Of a stretch of DNA of 64,000 nt, positions 7,314 through 63,283 are shown one piece after another (within the stretch, counting starts at the first letter, position 1; each line of letters opens with the position of its first letter). The position numbers were made by a program, and so were the translations under genes. Under the pieces are notes generated by a model. The model was not told where the DNA came from. It worked only from the letters and a program-made list of their open reading frames with translations, and did no database searches. Source of the DNA: Sinohyriopsis cumingii (taxonomy: Eukaryota > Mollusca > Bivalvia > Unionida > Unionidae); NCBI GenBank assembly GCA_028554795.2, contig CM068839.1, positions 14,167,220 to 14,231,219 on the forward strand, read 5' to 3'.

Positions 7314-7467
7314 GTCCAACTGCAAACTGTACAGAACTAGCTATGCCAGCAGATTTGGGTCTATGCATTTTGTTAGGAGTAATGGGTATTGCAAACGAAA
7401 TATACCCTGATCTATCAGCACATTATAGGACAAAAACATAAGGTCTATATTGTTTGCAGTTGGAGTT
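7314..7467. mobile_element. Palindromic MITE-like element, copy 2
   Basis: The ends are TCCAACTGCAAACTGTAC and its near inverse GTTTGCAGTTGGA. The interior has GCCAGCAGATTTGGGTCTAT and the inverse-like CTGATCTATCAGCACATTAT. This is the clearest copy of the family, with no coding capacity. Confidence 0.65.
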
Positions 7468-7556
7468 GTATGTATGTATATTTACTGTGGTAAACTATAT
7501 TGTTGATAGTACTAGAAATGCATGTAACCAAGTGTAATACCTGTGCCCACTTGCAG

Positions 7557-7610
7557 GTGTCAGAAGATGCTTCTAGACGGGGAAAGGAAAAGGCTAAGAT
7601 ATACAAACCT
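7557..7610 (+). CDS. IP3-receptor-like gene, exon 2
   Basis: This 54-nt exon in phase 0/0 lies between CCCACTTGCAG and GTAAGA. It encodes VSEDASRRGKEKAKIYKP, a short, basic, probably disordered linker. IP3 receptors have a variable insert at the equivalent place, before the conserved helix of exon 3. Support comes from good splice signals, exact phase and the charged composition. Because it keeps the frame whether included or skipped, it could be an optional cassette exon. Confidence 0.6.
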
Positions 7611-8495
7611 GTAAGACTATGCACTGAATCTATCATCATAAATTCTGTCTCATAATTTAGCTTTATACTCTCAATAATGCTATTTTGTTATATATTATAA
7701 CTATTTGCTTGATATATTGTTTATAAATTATGTGATAGTTCTGACCTTCAGAATTCATGACGTTGATACATTTTCTTAAGACTATGTCTTAAAACAAATG
7801 TTCATGTATATTGATGGGAAAATGTTGACTTATTCTTATGGTAATAATTCCAATTTTTATAAATTGACTGCATTTTCTGTTTTGATTGGATGTAAACGGT
7901 CATGTGATACTGATCTGGAATTTTTTTCACATCGATAAATTCTGTAGACTACTTTTGGTTCCCCGTTTCCAGATCATTTGATGTGAAGTTTTATTTATAT
8001 CAATGCCTTACACCCTAATAATAATAAAAACAAGCTCCCACCCAGCCACTCCTGTGTTTTCCGATCAAACATGACAAGCCACAGCTTAAAATCAATGATT
8101 AGAAATGAAAACAATGTATTTGCACAGACTTTCCTGCACTGCAACACTCACTCCTTTTGCCAAAGAAAGCATATGGCAGGCTTTAGAAGCCAATTTTTGG
8201 AAATTATTGCATTTCACCTCAACATGTTACAGCAGCAGTTATTAAAGGTCGGCGTCAACCAAGGGATATCACTAAAAATGGACATGATTTAGCTTTTGAA
8301 AGATCAAAATGTGTAGAAAGTAACAAAAGCGTTGCTATAACAAAATGTGCCATATGCAAGCATACTTAAAATAAAAAGGAATATTCCTAGTTTAAAAGCA
8401 TACAGGCATTTTTTTTATATTAAAATAATGATCATAACAATATATCACTATGACATTCTACCCCATATCACTGTATAAAGAATCAATGAATCTTA
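7611..8495. other. Intron 2 sequence, left of DNA element copy 2
   Basis: AT-rich. A weak inverted repeat links CATGTGATACTGATCTGGAA (7893) with the complement of TTCCAGATCATTTGATGTG (7969). A 73-codon open frame at 8071 has no recognisable product. Confidence 0.4.
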
Positions 8496-25025: not shown

Positions 25026-27843
25026 AAGAACTCACTGATCAAATGTCTTAACCACACCACAACTTTCAATTTCTACCACACATCATTTTAACTAGTCCAA
25101 ACCACACTCACACTGAAACAAAGGTCAGTCCATTTTTTCTGCCTATACTGCCCTCCTCCTGGTAGAAAAAACAAGGTGACTCTCTTTTTGGAGCAGTTTT
25201 TGAATCTCCTGGAGTATGGAAATTTGATAGGTAGCACCCTGATTATTCTTGGAGATTTCAGCTTTCACTTGACTGTCCCGGAAACCCAAACACATCAGAA
25301 CTCCTGGATTTCATTCATGTTTTCAACCTCAAACAGTCAGTTAACCAACATAAACATGGTCACATTTTAGACTGGATTCTTCATAGACCTGATAATAATA
25401 TTCTACAGTCCTCCCTGACATCCCACGAACTTGCATCAGGTCTTCTCTGCATTATATGCCATCTTGATGTATCAGTCCCTAGCCCTCTACATTTATTTGC
25501 TACTAAGAGAACCTCCATATGATAAATAGAACCAAACTAATGCATGACATCCAAGCAAACCTAACAACTTGCTTGCTTCCTACAGTAGAACAACTCGATA
25601 ACTGCCAGCATTCATTGCTCGACAAACATGCCCCAGCCACCAAGTGCAGAGTATCAATTCAAAAGTGTTCTCCGTGGTATAGCAGTCTTAGGGACCAGCT
25701 TCGCACTGCTAAAAGAGACTGTCGTAAAGCTGAGAGGCTTTGGCTTTCCACCAGACTCACTATTCATAAGCAAATCTATGAAGCCGCTAAGAAGAACTTC
25801 ACAGACATAGTCCATGCAGTGAAATCAGCCCACTACAGTACTAAGATCATGGAAAGTTCCAGCTGCAAAGTGCTCTTCAAGATTGCTAACAAGCTAATGT
25901 CAAGGAACAAATGTACACCACTTCCAACTACCTTCTCTCCAGTTGACCTTCTGGACCTGTTTGCAAATTTCTTCCATGACAAAGTACAAATATTATGATA
26001 AGCTTGACAACACAATTTCAATTGATTCATTGTCATGATACAGATGGGATACAGAATTTCAGCAGCAACCATTAACATCATTTGAACCTGTCTCTATGGA
26101 TTTAGTACGTACAATCATGATGAAGAGTGCACCAAAGTCATGTGAACTTGATCCAATTCCAACATCACTGCTGCTTGAGTGCTTAGATCCATATTGCCTT
26201 CACTAACTGATGTTAATAATACCTCTCTCTCATCCGGGGAATTCCCATCATTTTTCAAAACTGCCATTGTAAAGCCTTTGCTGAAGAAACCAACACCTGA
26301 CCATAACATTAAGGAACTACCACCCAGTTTCTAATCTCCCATTCATATCAAAAATCTTAGAAAAGGTTGTTCTATCCCAGCTTGTATCTCATCTGAATTC
26401 AAAGTCTTTTTAGCATTGTATAATCTGCATATTGCCTTTGCCACAGTACTGAAACTACTTTACTAAAAGTAGTTAATGACATTCTCTCTGCTTTTGGATA
26501 GCAGAAAGATTACAGTCCTCACCCTCCTTGATTTGTCTGCAGCATTTGACACAATAGACAATGATATATTACTTCACCATCTCCAGCATGTATTTGGAAT
26601 TCATAATACAACCTTACTGTTTTTCAAGTCCTACTTGGTCAACAGGACACAAATTGTGTCTGCAAATGGAATACACTCCAGCCCAGTTAATTTTTTGTTG
26701 TGGTGTTCCACAGGGGTCTGTTCTTGGACCTGTTCTCTTCATTCTATACACTCGGCCACTCTCAAGTGTCATAGATCATCATCCAGTGCCTCATTAATTG
26801 TGTGTCAACGATACCCAACTATACAAATCTAGCCACCCAACTGAAGTTGATGCTACCATCCAAGGTGTAGAGATGTGCATTTCTGATGTGAAATCATAGA
26901 TGACATGTAGCAAGCTGCAGATGAATGATAAGAAAACTGAGGCCATTCTGATTACAACACAAAGACTTTCTCATTCACATCCTTTACCTCAAACAGTAAC
27001 TATCAGCAACACCAACATTAAATTCACACAGTATGAAACCTAGGTGTTACTCTGGACAGTACTCTCACATTGCACCAACATGTCATGAACATGTGCAAGG
27101 CTGTATATCTTGAGCAGAGACGCATCAGCTCCATTTGCAAATATCTTTCAGTTGATGCCACTAAAACATTTGTGTGCTCATTAGTACTTTCAAGACTGGA
27201 CTATCGTAACTCAGTTCTGTCTGGTTCATCTCAATATCTACTCCAGAAACATAAAAACACAGCTGCTCAGATCATAGAGTACCACGTTCAGAGCACACCT
27301 CCCCACTGCTCTGTACCCTACACTGATTATCCATTCAATCCAGAATCAAGCACAAAATTTGTTCTCTGTTCTACGTTTCACTGATGGACTCTAGTCCAAC
27401 ATACCTATCTGACCTCACCCATGTGTACACATGAGTAAGATACTTATGCACCTCTTCTGACAATCATATACTCATTATTCCCACTATGAAAATTAAGTCA
27501 TATGGACAACGTTCTTTTGCATACTAGAGCCCAGCAATGTAGAATGAATTGCCCACTGAACTTAGACACAAAGACACAGTGATCCCATTCAGGAGTGCTC
27601 TTAAAACTCACTTATTTTGATTTCAGACACAAACTTAAAGACCTAATAATGTTTCCTACCTTAAATATTTTCAGCATATTTTTTATGTTTTCTAATTTCA
27701 TGGGGTTTGATTTTTATAATGATGTCATTATATATGTTTTTTGGTGTTTTTTTATGTTACAGGTGTTGTCTAATGTTGTAAAGCGCTTAGAACTTCTACA
27801 GATTAGGTGCTGTACAAAGTTCTCATTATTATTATTATTAATA
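25026..27843 (+). mobile_element. L2-like non-LTR retrotransposon, 5'-truncated and inactivated
   Basis: In order: an endonuclease end with LIILGDFSFHL (25230) and GHILDWILHRP (25359), a linker (25519-25998) with LDKHAPATK and LRTAKRDCRKAERLWLS, and reverse transcriptase motifs [20 protein letters not shown] (from 26524) and, in another frame, [17 protein letters not shown] (26700-26760). A C-terminal SLVLSRLDYRNSVLSG (27178) follows. The 3' end AAAGCGCTTAGAA runs into an ATT repeat, typical of L2/CR1-type elements. Frameshifts and stops separate the blocks, so it is dead. The 5' limit is approximate. A DNA transposon sits in its ATT tail. Confidence 0.85.
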
Positions 27844-28137
27844 TTACACTGGTCAACAGTGAAATCATTACTGACTTGAAAAGGCCCTAATCTGTAGTAT
27901 TTTGGTGTGCCGAACACGAATATAACCGTGAAAAATTTGTATTGGCTCTCGTTTTGAAGATATTCATATACCTCATTTTCTATGTTTCACTGTGTAAATT
28001 TCTCCAGTAGGACTGCAGCAACATCCGGAATAATGATGTAACATTGCATAATACCATCATGCTCACATCATCCACAGTTGATTGCATCATTTTCTGATGC
28101 AATGCAATACTAATGCCATGCGGCTGCTGAAGTAAGT

Positions 28138-28226
28138 TGACGTCAGCAGTGTACTATACATGTGTAGGCCTATTATACTAATGCCAGGCGGCTGCTGAAG
28201 CTGACGTAAGCAGTGTACTATATAAA
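28138..28226 (+). promoter_or_regulatory. Putative promoter of the transposon gene (CRE-like sites, TATA box)
   Basis: TGACGTCA at 28138-28145 and TGACGTAA at 28202-28209 lie in two copies of a direct repeat of about 65 bp, each with GCGGCTGCTGAAG before and CAGTGTACTATA after. The second copy reads on into TATATAAAG at 28219-28227, about 120 bp before the start codon. TGACGTCA is the consensus CRE (CREB/ATF site). Function is inferred from the motifs only. Confidence 0.5.
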
Positions 28227-28340
28227 GCCCAATCAGATAGGTTCAGCATTTAAAATATTTTAGACGTTGTGCGAGACAGTTCAAGCTACTGTTACATAAA
28301 ACTTATTATTTTATCCATTTACGTACAATAAAGAACAGTA

Positions 28341-30029
28341 ATGCCTCGAAAGTGTGTTAATACCGCGGACAATTTTTGCTATATTTGTGGGGAAGTGACA
28401 TTTGCCAACCAGAAGAAAAGTATCAATTCTCAAGTGAAGAAGGCATATCATCTTTACTTCGGATGCAAGGTTGGTGACCAAGACAAGCCTTGGGCTCCGC
28501 ATATATGCTGTGCTACATGTACAACACAGCTTTCACAGTGGTTGAATTGCAAAAGGTCATCAATGCCGTTTGCAGTCCCAATGGTGTGGAGAGAGCCAAG
28601 CAACCACCTAAATGACTGTTACTTCTGCTTGGTTCCTCCTCTTTCCGGCGGAATAACGAAGCGAAAGAAGTCGAGAATAGTCTACCCAAACATTCCGTCT
28701 GCATTGAGACCAGTTCCACATGGTGAGGGACTTCCTATTCCAGAACCTCCAGCAGAATATTCTCTTGATTCATCTGACGAAGACAAAGGTGAGTCGACCT
28801 GTTCTTTTCCTGGTCCATCAGCATGCAGTGATCCAGATTTTCACTGTGATGCATCATCAACCCCACACAGAATAACACAGGAAGAACTAAATGACCTGAT
28901 TCGTGATTTGGACTTATCAAAGAACAAGGCAGAATTGCTAGGATCAAGACTCCAACAATGGAATCTTCTAGAAGAAGATGTCACAATTACTGCATATCGA
29001 AAGCGCCACCAGCAATTGGAGCCTTTCTTCAGAAAGGAAAGTAATCTGATATTCTGTTCCGATATTGAGGGCCTCATGAATGCTTTAAAAATCACTCATG
29101 ACCCACAAGAATGGAGACTATTTGTGGACTCTTCGAAACTGAGTCTCAAGGCTGTGCTTTTGCACAATGGAAACATTCTTCCATCTATTCCAGTAGCGTA
29201 TGCTGTCCACATGAAAGAGACATACGATAACTTAAGGCAGCTACTGAATTCCATTGAGTATAACAAGTACAGCTGGCACCTCTGTGGTGATTTGAAGGTA
29301 GTTGCCCTTTTAATGGGACTGCAGCAAGGATATACAAAATACATGTGTTTCTTATGCGAGTGGGATAGCCGAGCAAGGGAAATGCACTACATGAGGAAGG
29401 AATGGACTCACAGGCAGAATGTAGCCATTGGAGAGAAGAATATCCAACACCCAGCTCTGGTTGAGGCTCAGAAAATCTTGCTACCACCCCTTCACATCAA
29501 ACTAGGTTTGATGAAGAACTTCGTGAAAGCCATTGACCGGACTTTGCCAGCATTCCGATACCTGCATGAAAAATTCCCTCGACTCAGCGAAGCAAAGATT
29601 AAAGAGGGAGTTTTTGTGGGTCCTCAGATTCGAGAGCTTTTCAAAGATGACCGGTTCAACAACTTGCTGGAAGGTGACGCGAAACAAGCATGGAATGCTT
29701 TTCGCCTAGTTTCTACAAACTTCCTCGGAAATGTTAGGGCAGAAAACTATAAGGAACTAGTAGAAGACATGTTGATGAAGTATAAGAAACTTGGCTGCAA
29801 TATGTCTCTAAAGATTCACTTCCTTCATTCCCATTTGGATTTCTTTCCTAGCAACTGTGGTATTGTTAGTGATGAACACGGCGAACGTTTTCATCAAGAT
29901 ATTGCAACAATGGAACAAAGATACCAGGGAAAATGGTCCACTACAATGCTGGCTGACTACTGCTGGACACTCCTCAGAGATGCTCCCGAACAGCTGTACA
30001 AGAGACAGGCGAAGAAATCTAAGATGTAG
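28341..30029 (+). CDS. Putative DDE-type transposase, 562 residues
   Basis: This is an intact frame with no intron inside a transposon with matching termini. Residues 5-60 hold a Cys-rich block (CYICGE near 13, C42, then CCATC at 56-60) that may be a zinc finger for DNA binding, possibly ZAD-like. A second CYFC pair is at 93-96, and an acidic, Ser-rich linker spans about 137-175. The likely RNase H-like core has D263 in FVDSSKL, D317 in CGDLKV, a CFLCEWD pair at 336-342, and E512 or E515 in SDEHGERFHQD. The DDE assignment is inference from spacing and context. Similar proteins ending SDEHGERFHQDI followed by ADYCW occur, as I recall, in many invertebrate genomes as uncharacterised proteins. 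The start ATG has a purine at -3 and lies about 120 bp after a TATA box. Confidence 0.7.
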   Translation: MPRKCVNTADNFCYICGEVTFANQKKSINSQVKKAYHLYFGCKVGDQDKPWAPHICCATCTTQLSQWLNCKRSSMPFAVPMVWREPSNHLNDCYFCLVPPLSGGITKRKKSRIVYPNIPSALRPVPHGEGLPIPEPPAEYSLDSSDEDKGESTCSFPGPSACSDPDFHCDASSTPHRITQEELNDLIRDLDLSKNKAELLGSRLQQWNLLEEDVTITAYRKRHQQLEPFFRKESNLIFCSDIEGLMNALKITHDPQEWRLFVDSSKLSLKAVLLHNGNILPSIPVAYAVHMKETYDNLRQLLNSIEYNKYSWHLCGDLKVVALLMGLQQGYTKYMCFLCEWDSRAREMHYMRKEWTHRQNVAIGEKNIQHPALVEAQKILLPPLHIKLGLMKNFVKAIDRTLPAFRYLHEKFPRLSEAKIKEGVFVGPQIRELFKDDRFNNLLEGDAKQAWNAFRLVSTNFLGNVRAENYKELVEDMLMKYKKLGCNMSLKIHFLHSHLDFFPSNCGIVSDEHGERFHQDIATMEQRYQGKWSTTMLADYCWTLLRDAPEQLYKRQAKKSKM

Positions 30030-30249
30030 TCAATGACTTGATTTTTTATAGGTAGGCTATTACAGTTGACCTTTTACTATTGGAATGCATTTCGTTATGT
30101 AAACATTAATTTCTTGCAGATTACAAAAAAACTAGAGCCAATTTTGCAATTTGACTGTCATATTCATGTTCAGCACATAAAAATTGATAAGAATTGACTA
30201 ATTTTATTTCAGTAACATGACTTTTGTAAAAATTTGTTGTCCAGTGTTA

Positions 30250-30540
30250 TGTGTATGTTGACTAATCATGTTAGTCATTGAGTATTTTGTAAGTGTTTGT
30301 GTCGTTAATTCAAGCTAAGTTACAGCTGTATGCAAAACATATATGACAGAATTTTGCAGACTCAACTATTCTTTTCATTATTGATAGATTTAAGTGGTTT
30401 TTTTTGGTCCAAATGGTCATATGAAGACATGCATACTTACCAATCTTTCATGATAATTTGTAAGAGTTATTGCCCATATTTGAGACTACAATCAACTCAT
30501 CTTCATCATGATGAGCAAGCATTAGCTGGCATATTGACTG
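30250..30540. other. Intron 4 sequence after the DNA transposon
   Basis: AT-rich, with no recognised feature. An open frame starting at 30330 continues into the following array and is not a gene. Confidence 0.4.
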
Positions 30541-59666: not shown

Positions 59667-59805
59667 AATATACAGAAGTAGGAAGCAGTGAGGAACTTCC
59701 TTTAGGTGAAGAGTTTCAGAATCTTGTGAAAACATTCATTGACAATCATGAAAAGAAGTCTTCCAAAAGATATGCTTTAACAAAGAAGCTGTTGGAGCAG
59801 TTGGC
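59667..59805 (+). CDS. IP3-receptor-like gene, exon 14
   Basis: The exon starts after CCTTCACAG, completes a Glu codon, encodes 45 codons beginning YTEVGSSEELPLGEEFQNLV, and ends with two bases of an Ala codon at donor GTAAGT. The EELPL and EEFQNLVKTFIDNHEK segments match the family order PELLFPEN, then FICKLIKHTKQLLEE. Its donor GTAAGTATT is repeated in about 45 downstream copies of a 55-bp unit, which makes this the exon most exposed to decoy donors. Confidence 0.75.
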
Positions 59806-62270
59806 GTAAGTATTACTGATGATGTAGAACATGCTACTCATGTAGTTAGTGGGTTCAGGAGTAAGTATTACTGATGATCTGGAACATGCTACTCTTGTAG
59901 GGAGTGGGAACAGGAGTAAGTATTACTGATGATGTGGAACATGCTACTCTTGTAGGGAGTGTGTTCAGGAGAAAGTATTACATATGATGTGGAACATGCT
60001 ACTCATGTAGGGATTGGGTTCAAGAGTAAGTATTGCCAATGATGTAGAACATGTTACTGATGTAGGGAGTGGGTTCAGGAGTAAATATTACTGATGATGT
60101 GGAACATGCTACTCTTGTAGGGAGTGGGTTCAGGAGCAAGTATTACAGATGATGTGGAACATGCTACTCATGTAGGGAGTGGGTTCAGGAGTAAGTATTA
60201 CCAATGATATGGAGTATGCTAATTATGTAGGGAGTGGGTTCAGGAGTAAGTATTACCAATGATATGGAACATGCTAATTATGTAGGGAGTGGGGTCAGGA
60301 GTACATATTACCAATGATATGGAACATGCTACTCATGTAGGGAGTGGGTTCAGTAGTAAGTATTGCCAATGATATGGAACATGCTACTCATGTAGGGAGT
60401 GGGTTTAGGAGTAAGTATTACCAATGATATAGAACATGCTAATAATGTAGGGAGTGGGGTCAGGAGTAAGTATTATTGGTGATATGGAACATGCTAATTA
60501 TGTAGGGAGTGGGTTCAGAAGTAAGTATTGCCAATGATATGGAACATGCTACAAATGTAGGGAGTGGTTTTAGGAGTAAGTATTACCGATGATATGGAAC
60601 ATGCTACTTCTGTGGGGAGTGGGGTCAGGAGTAAGTATTACTGATGATGTGGAACATGCTACTCTTGTAGGGAGTGGGTTTAGCAGTAAGTATTACCAGT
60701 GATATGGAGCATGCTAATTATGTAGGGAGTGGGTTCAGGAGTAAGTATTACTGATGATATGGAACATGCTAATTATGTAGGGAGTGGGTTTAGGAGTAAG
60801 TATTACCAATGATATGGAACATGCTAATCATGTAGGGAATGGGTTCAGCAGTAAGTATTACCAGTGATATGGAACATGCTACTCATTTAGGGAGTGGGTT
60901 CAGGAGTAAGTATTGCCAATGATATGGAACATAAAACTCATGTAGGGAGTGAGTTCAGGAGTAAGTATTACTGATGATATGGAACATGCTACTCATGTAT
61001 GGAGTGGGTTCAGGAGTAAGTATTACCGATTATATGGAACATGCTACTTCTGTGGGGAGTGCGGTCAGGAGCAAGTATTACTGATGATATGGAACATGCT
61101 ACTTATGTAGGGAGTTAGTCAGGAGTAAGTATTACTGATGATATGGAGCATGCTAATTATGTAGGGAGTGGGTTCAGAAGTATTACTGATGATGTGGAAC
61201 ATAAAACTCATGTAGGGAGTGAGTTCAGGAGTAAGTATTACTGATGATATGGAACATGCTACTCATTTATCGAGTGGGTTCAGGAGTAAGTATTGCCAAT
61301 GATATGGAACATGCTACTTCTGTGGGGAGTGGGGTCAAGAGCAAGTATTACTGATGATATGGAACATGCTACTTATGTAGGGAGTTAGTCAGAAGTAAGT
61401 ATTACTGATGATGTGGAACATAAAACTCATGTAGGGAGTGAGTTCAGGAGTAAGTATTACTGATGATATGGAACATGCTACTCATGTAGGGAGTGGGTTC
61501 AGGAGTAAGTATTGCCAATGATATGGAACATAAAACTCATGTAGGGAGTGAGTTCAGGAGTAAGTATTACTGATGATATGGAACATGCTACTCATGTAGG
61601 GAGTGGGTTCAGGAGTAAGTATTACTGATGATATGGAACATGCTACTCATGTAGGGAATGGGTTCAGGAGTAAGTATTACTGATGATATGGAACATGCTA
61701 CTCATGTATGGAGTGGGTTCAGGAGTAAGTATTACTGATGATATGGAACATGCTACTTATGTAGGGAGTTGGTCAGAAGTAAGTATTGCCAGTGATATGG
61801 AACATGCTACTCATTTAGGAAGTGGGTTCAGGAGTAAGTATTGCCAATGATATGGAACATAAAACTCATGTAGGGAGTGAGTTCAGGAGTAAGTATTACT
61901 GATGATATGGAACATGCTACTCATGTAGGGAGTGGGTTCAGGAGTAAGTATTACTGATGATATGGAACATGCTACTCATGTAGGGAGTGAGTTCAGGAGT
62001 AAGTATTACTGATGATGTGGAACATAAAACTCATGTAGGGAGTGAGTTCAGGAGTAAGTATTACTGATGATATGGAACATGCTACTCATGTAGGGAGTGG
62101 GTTCAGGAGTAAGTATTACTGATGATATGGAACATGCTACTCATGTAGGGAGTGGGTTCAGGTATAAGTATTGTTGATGGTATGGAACATGCTACTCGTG
62201 TAGGGAGTGGGTTTAGGAGTAAGTATTACTGATGATATGGAACAGGCTATTCATGTATGGAATGGGGGCA
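59806..62270. repeat. 55-bp array of the exon 14 splice donor, about 45 copies
   Basis: Units read GTAAGTATTACTGATGATAT, then GGAACATGCTACTCATGTAG, then GGAGTGGGTTCAGGA. The first GTAAGTATT is the authentic donor of exon 14, and most later units keep GTAAGTATT. A variant unit with GGAACATAAAACTCATG recurs at intervals that are roughly multiples of 55 bp, so multi-unit blocks have been copied. Confidence 0.95.
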
Positions 62271-63124: not shown

Positions 63125-63283
63125 GATATCTGCCAAGCAAATCCGTCTGGCTATGATGCCATCAGGTGCAGAAGAGGTCCTGGACATCAAATGTCTGCAG
63201 ATTCTGAGGGCCATTATCCATAATGAGGAGAGAAAGCTTCCAGAGGACTGGGATACAAGAGCCTCAGAAACCAAGATCAAAAA
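63125..63283 (+). CDS. IP3-receptor-like gene, exon 15 (last in the window)
   Basis: The acceptor AACTGCAG is followed by one base completing Ala and 52 codons, ending with two bases of a Lys codon at donor GTGAGC. The segment DIKCLQILRAIIHNEERKL matches the IP3-receptor block EKLCIKVLQTLREMM. The charged tail EDWDTRASETKIK follows, and in the family this position leads into a long variable linker. The gene continues beyond 64000. Confidence 0.8.

Follow-up and report, generated by a model that had tools for sequence, protein, structure and literature searches.

The intron behind one coding exon of a putative IP3-receptor-type gene in Sinohyriopsis cumingii opens with a 55-bp minisatellite whose units repeat the donor of that exon many times over. 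With a probability of roughly 85%, we infer that this is a largely neutral or near-neutral minisatellite that arose when the first 55 intron bases were duplicated, and as a biological system the array appears ordinary. The tandem duplication of this segment, donor foremost, would have taken place at the latest in the common ancestor of two near-identical IP3-receptor-type genes, after which the array would have expanded and contracted through ordinary repeat instability. Its place at the edge of that segment would be the reason why the donor motif was copied, and the first donor would have stayed the functional one. The later copies would then be decoys, and their use would bring a stop directly after the exon and a truncated or degraded message. 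Positions given below are those of the window, i.e., the whole 64-kb stretch of DNA that was analysed (Table 1).

Tandem Repeats Finder (TRF) described the array with a period of 55, 44.9 copies, 87% matches, and a score of 3578, values that fall within the definition of minisatellites (VNTRs) as head-to-tail units of 6 to 100 bp given in an excerpt of PMC12771815. The 45 unit heads were located by a fuzzy scan. Forty units measure 55 bp, three 54 bp, and one 51 bp, while the final unit is truncated at 52 bp, where the scanned stretch ends. On its left, the array starts exactly at the exon border (59805/59806, offset 0), and eight of the heads depart from the exact donor sequence. Among the 37 exact heads, the preceding triplet is GGA in 29, GGC in one (the exon), and something else in seven. 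All 37 plus-strand occurrences of GTAAGTATT in the window fall inside the array and none outside, and the minus strand holds a single one. Pairwise identity between units averages 86%, with 38 distinct units among the 45, and a search for long-range block order found none (lags 2 to 29; runs of at least four units at 98% identity or more). The preliminary description of a donor amplified into about 45 copies behind its exon was accurate, and the array is striking to the eye.

Table 1. Positions of the array, its flanking exons, and a mobile-element-like sequence in the window
Feature	Position	Strand	Basis or comparison
Transposon-like sequence, 2.4 kb	27839..30250	.	99.6% identical to insert in near-duplicate array
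Coding exon EYTEVGSSEELPLGEEFQNLVKTFIDNHEKKSSKRYALTKKLLEQLA	59667..59805	+	Kept in near duplicate; 52-56% aa identity, equal phase in older paralog
Probable genuine 5' splice site GTAAGTATT, also head of array unit 1	59806..59814	+	Older-paralog intron comparison
55-bp minisatellite	59806..62266	+	45 unit heads, 37 exactly GTAAGTATT
Next coding exon ISAKQIRLAMMPSGAEEVLDIKCLQILRAIIHNEERKLPEDWDTRASETKIKK	63125..63283	+	Borders read from sequence

The limits of the exon before the array are set by its AG and GT, and its phase-2 end reads TTGGC/GTAAGT (the slash marks the border); the E that opens its peptide and the A that closes it are split with the adjoining exons. It joins the exon after the array in frame (phase 2, GC/G). 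A protein search gave seven matches in the genome, namely two exon rows each for the host gene, a near duplicate, and an older paralog, and one for a copy on C5. The exon after the array gave rows of 93% identity for both near duplicates and of 74% over part of its length in the older paralog. On their own, the two array-flanking exons had no match in Pfam or PDB. A downstream exon (window-equivalent 93192-93350) carries RIH_assoc (PF08454) with an E value of 9.5e-13 and 48.4 bits vs a cut-off of 28.5. Among solved structures, the eight best of nine matches (up to E 1) were IP3 receptors, all of them weak (best E 0.017), and those up to E 0.06 were ITPR2/ITPR3. Since the array exons and the RIH_assoc exon are collinear with the older paralog, we place the RIH_assoc exon in the gene of the array. 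The RIH_assoc exon, the weak IP3 receptor structure matches, and the collinear exons of the older paralog together suggest an IP3-receptor-type host gene, a finer name that is probable rather than certain, RIH_assoc being also found in ryanodine receptors. When the near duplicates were scanned by codon position, few convincing exons were flagged, and the exons were found afterwards by their conservation to the older paralog.

The near duplicate lies at C16:14.72 Mb (C16:14719494-14724048), about 490 kb away, and follows the order of the window for tens of kilobases. It has the same exon and the same GGC/GTAAGTATT border as the host gene, and its array has only seven recognizable heads (four GTAAGT with the first included, two ATAAGT, and one GCAAGT), GTAAGT being gone from three of the six later ones. 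Between the two paralogs, the unit heads number 45 vs 7. The right flanks of the two arrays match (by eye), and therefore the array is older than the gene duplication. The near-duplicate array is interrupted by a 2.4-kb transposon-like insert, at C16:14719802-14722214 (in L014/L015), and its near identity to the copy found in the window indicates that this element moved recently. Its ends resemble, by eye, short inverted repeats beside TTA.

The older paralog (C16:74.81 Mb) has an intron at the same position and in the same phase, with the donor CA/GTAAGTATAG, in which GTAAGTAT is retained. It is without the 55-bp array, and an unrelated 50-bp array lies about 1.5 kb past its donor. The C5 copy, on the reverse strand, reads AA/GTAAGA at the homologous place (by eye). 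As both the older paralog and the C5 copy keep a donor there, the first donor is the ancestral one, and the site at 59806 is very probably the real, functional site in the host gene.

Scored with a donor weight matrix, the first donor reaches 1.28 and is surpassed by 36 of the 44 later heads (2.6 to 4.9), the lower value of the first being due to its C at -1. In U1 duplex energy, the first donor has -8.3 and the 36 exact later heads have -7.5 to -8.3. The earlier view of the later heads as near-equals of the real donor is therefore upheld. The same description had foreseen reading-through exon extensions from the use of later donors, and these are impossible. The reading frame across the border is GCG TAA, and the in-frame TAA (59807-59809, intron bases 2 to 4) is met immediately after the exon, so every later donor would give a protein ending right after LLEQLA. 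Judged from this frame, the later donors cannot add protein. Any intron in phase 2 that opens with GTAA brings such a stop with it, so this is no special design, and how the first donor would be preferred is an ordinary question of splice-site competition.

The GT of the donor varies among the units at the background rate. In the alignment of the 45 units, 7 of 90 cells in columns 1 and 2 are non-consensus (7.8%), vs 179 of 2060 (8.7%) in columns 10 to 55. If the units were selected as donors, GT should be their best protected part, and this variation argues against such selection. Against full neutrality, the donor 9-mer is the least variable 9-column window of the unit (10 non-consensus cells vs a median of 30), and this can be read as some constraint; the low variation sits in columns 3 to 9 (3 of 315 cells), not in the GT. 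We also counted against the neutral reading that 36 of the 44 later heads are still intact.

Regulated unproductive splicing, in which the ladder would cut the productive share of the mRNA and copy number would tune the message lost to decay, is the likeliest alternative, although an improbable one. It would fit the in-frame TAA that precedes all later donors, the 36 of 44 later heads that outscore the first on the weight matrix, and copy numbers as unlike as 45 and 7 unit heads in the two gene copies. However, the GT columns are not preferentially kept, half of the six later heads of the near duplicate have lost GTAAGT, and the stop would arise in any phase-2 intron starting with GTAA without having been designed. 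We consider it just as improbable that the ladder is a copy-number-tunable spliceosome sink, in which every unit gained would make it more likely that a donor beyond the in-frame stop is chosen and whose length would set the output of IP3-receptor-type mRNA, and that donor-seeded minisatellites are widespread expression modifiers in this genome, rich in repeats as it is. The array may still weakly affect how efficiently the message is spliced or how much of it decays.

A role as a U1-binding platform, with early-intron U1 sites guarding a long gene against premature polyadenylation or helping to define the exon, seems very improbable. In its favor, 37 sites within 2.5 kb read GTAAGTAT, which pairs with U1 over all eight bases; however, the intron has ATTAAA only twice (62298 and 62944) and no AATAAA, and a genome-wide enrichment of such arrays is absent. 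Triples of GTAAGTAT at gaps of 22 to 52 number 5483 genome-wide (2606 + 2877), vs 9728 for TATGAATG, 5317 for TAGTAATG, and 8495 for GTAATGAT (the reversed 8-mer giving 9728), where the counts are overlapping matches and not separate arrays, may be dominated by a few long arrays, and have a small control of three scrambles. Tandem GTAAGTAT is thus not enriched across the genome relative to these three scrambled 8-mers of the same composition, exceeding one of them slightly. Recursive splicing, with the units as ratchet sites and TTCAG as the 3' site directly before GTAAGT, is hardly credible: a ratchet site has a pyrimidine tract and then an AG joined directly to GT, whereas the unit consensus that invites the idea, TTCAGGA/GTAAGT, holds AG and GT two bases apart (AG-GA-GT), and the 20 bases ending in AG are the G-rich CATGTAGGGAGTGGGTTCAG, without a pyrimidine tract, which does not agree with such a site.

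The largely neutral minisatellite can be set against the repeat content of the genome around it. In the 104 kb examined (window plus flanks, L021, L018-L020), 51 merged arrays with a period of at least 10 cover 28% of the sequence. The 64-kb window gave 71 TRF rows, a very high tandem-repeat density. In the host gene, 2 of the 11 donors checked lie in tandem repeats, and array edges are in contact with 2 of 11 donors vs 0 of 10 acceptors, too small a sample for a conclusion, made up of exons found by conservation only and with borders set by eye. By chance, 0.22 donors would be expected at array edges (P about 0.02, in a test made once both cases were known). The second of these exon ends, at 66587/66588, lies within a 46-bp, 13.6-copy array with 11 GGTATGAC sites, and the sequence after the exon reads V and then a stop. 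The end of this exon (66431-66587) and its donor, CAACAGGGAGGTCCAG/GTATGAC, are amplified at window-equivalent 66571-67195 (L018:2591-3215). Further arrays downstream in the intron, at L018:6340-6930 and 7385-7632 and with periods of 83 and 94, hold longer stretches similar to this exon end.

Dynein genes gave a second sample, of 60 exon ends out of 84 matches, with related gene copies accounting for some. In 3 of the 60 (L039, L050, and L083), the donor as located by eye lies inside a tandem duplication of 1.9 to 3 copies. The left edges of 17 separate arrays, in 50-bp bins from -45, are distributed as 3, 2, 3, 0, 2, 1, 2, 2, 1, and 1, without a clear excess in the donor bin over these 60 exon ends. 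At the dynein exon end L079 (C16:84107931-84108531), a 24-bp unit that carries CAGTAAGAAAG is repeated about 20 times and forms a donor-like ladder, which starts 29 bases past the match end and was left out of the duplicated-donor count. An excess of array edges at donors is suggestive in the host gene only, where it was tested after the fact (2 of 11). Because donors sit in tandem repeats both in dynein (3/60) and in the host gene (2/11), we regard donor-bearing tandem repeats as a recurring side effect of tandem duplication where it is abundant, and the ladder, which is not exceptional in this genome, seems to be one short tandem repeat among very many.

The array amounts to a natural splice-site competition experiment, with 37 near-identical donors at one exon and a sister gene with few, and could be used to test how the donor next to an exon is chosen by the spliceosome over its neighbors. 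In a minisatellite-rich genome such as this, donors seem to be caught repeatedly in tandem duplications, and gene prediction must expect false donors.

A comparable array is that of human IFI6 (6-16, G1P3), whose unit is reportedly 12 bp long and located at the exon-intron border, vs 55 bp for the unit described here. In an IFI6-like array, the units carry good donor sequence and the array is in contact with the exon border, and both features were found here. The preliminary description knew of no system built in this way; however, the IFI6 minisatellite has been reported to provide multiple splice donor sites (Turri, Cuin and Porter, Nucleic Acids Res 1995; excerpts in PMC4526556 and PMC2572611). 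Two of its downstream units are reported there to be used as donors, yielding three mRNA species and differing isoforms (PMC4526556). The two systems share tandem-repeat units that carry donors, several in a row (for the array here, as known from sequence), and they differ in that later IFI6 units give isoforms, whereas any later unit here would lead to an immediate stop.

VNTR6-1 of TERT, an example of intronic VNTRs with an influence on splicing and treated in a paper on TERT splicing, has a 38-bp unit with 24 to 27 repeats in short alleles and 40.5 to 66.5 in long ones (PMC11830802). It is an intronic minisatellite like the array here, although the units here copy the own donor of the host intron, and no such statement about VNTR6-1 appears in the excerpt of that paper (PMC11830802). 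Tandem genomic duplication has also been described, in an excerpt of PMC4974935, as a source of introns. There too, tandem duplication bears on intron structure, but in the host gene no intron is newly made and the original one only grows.
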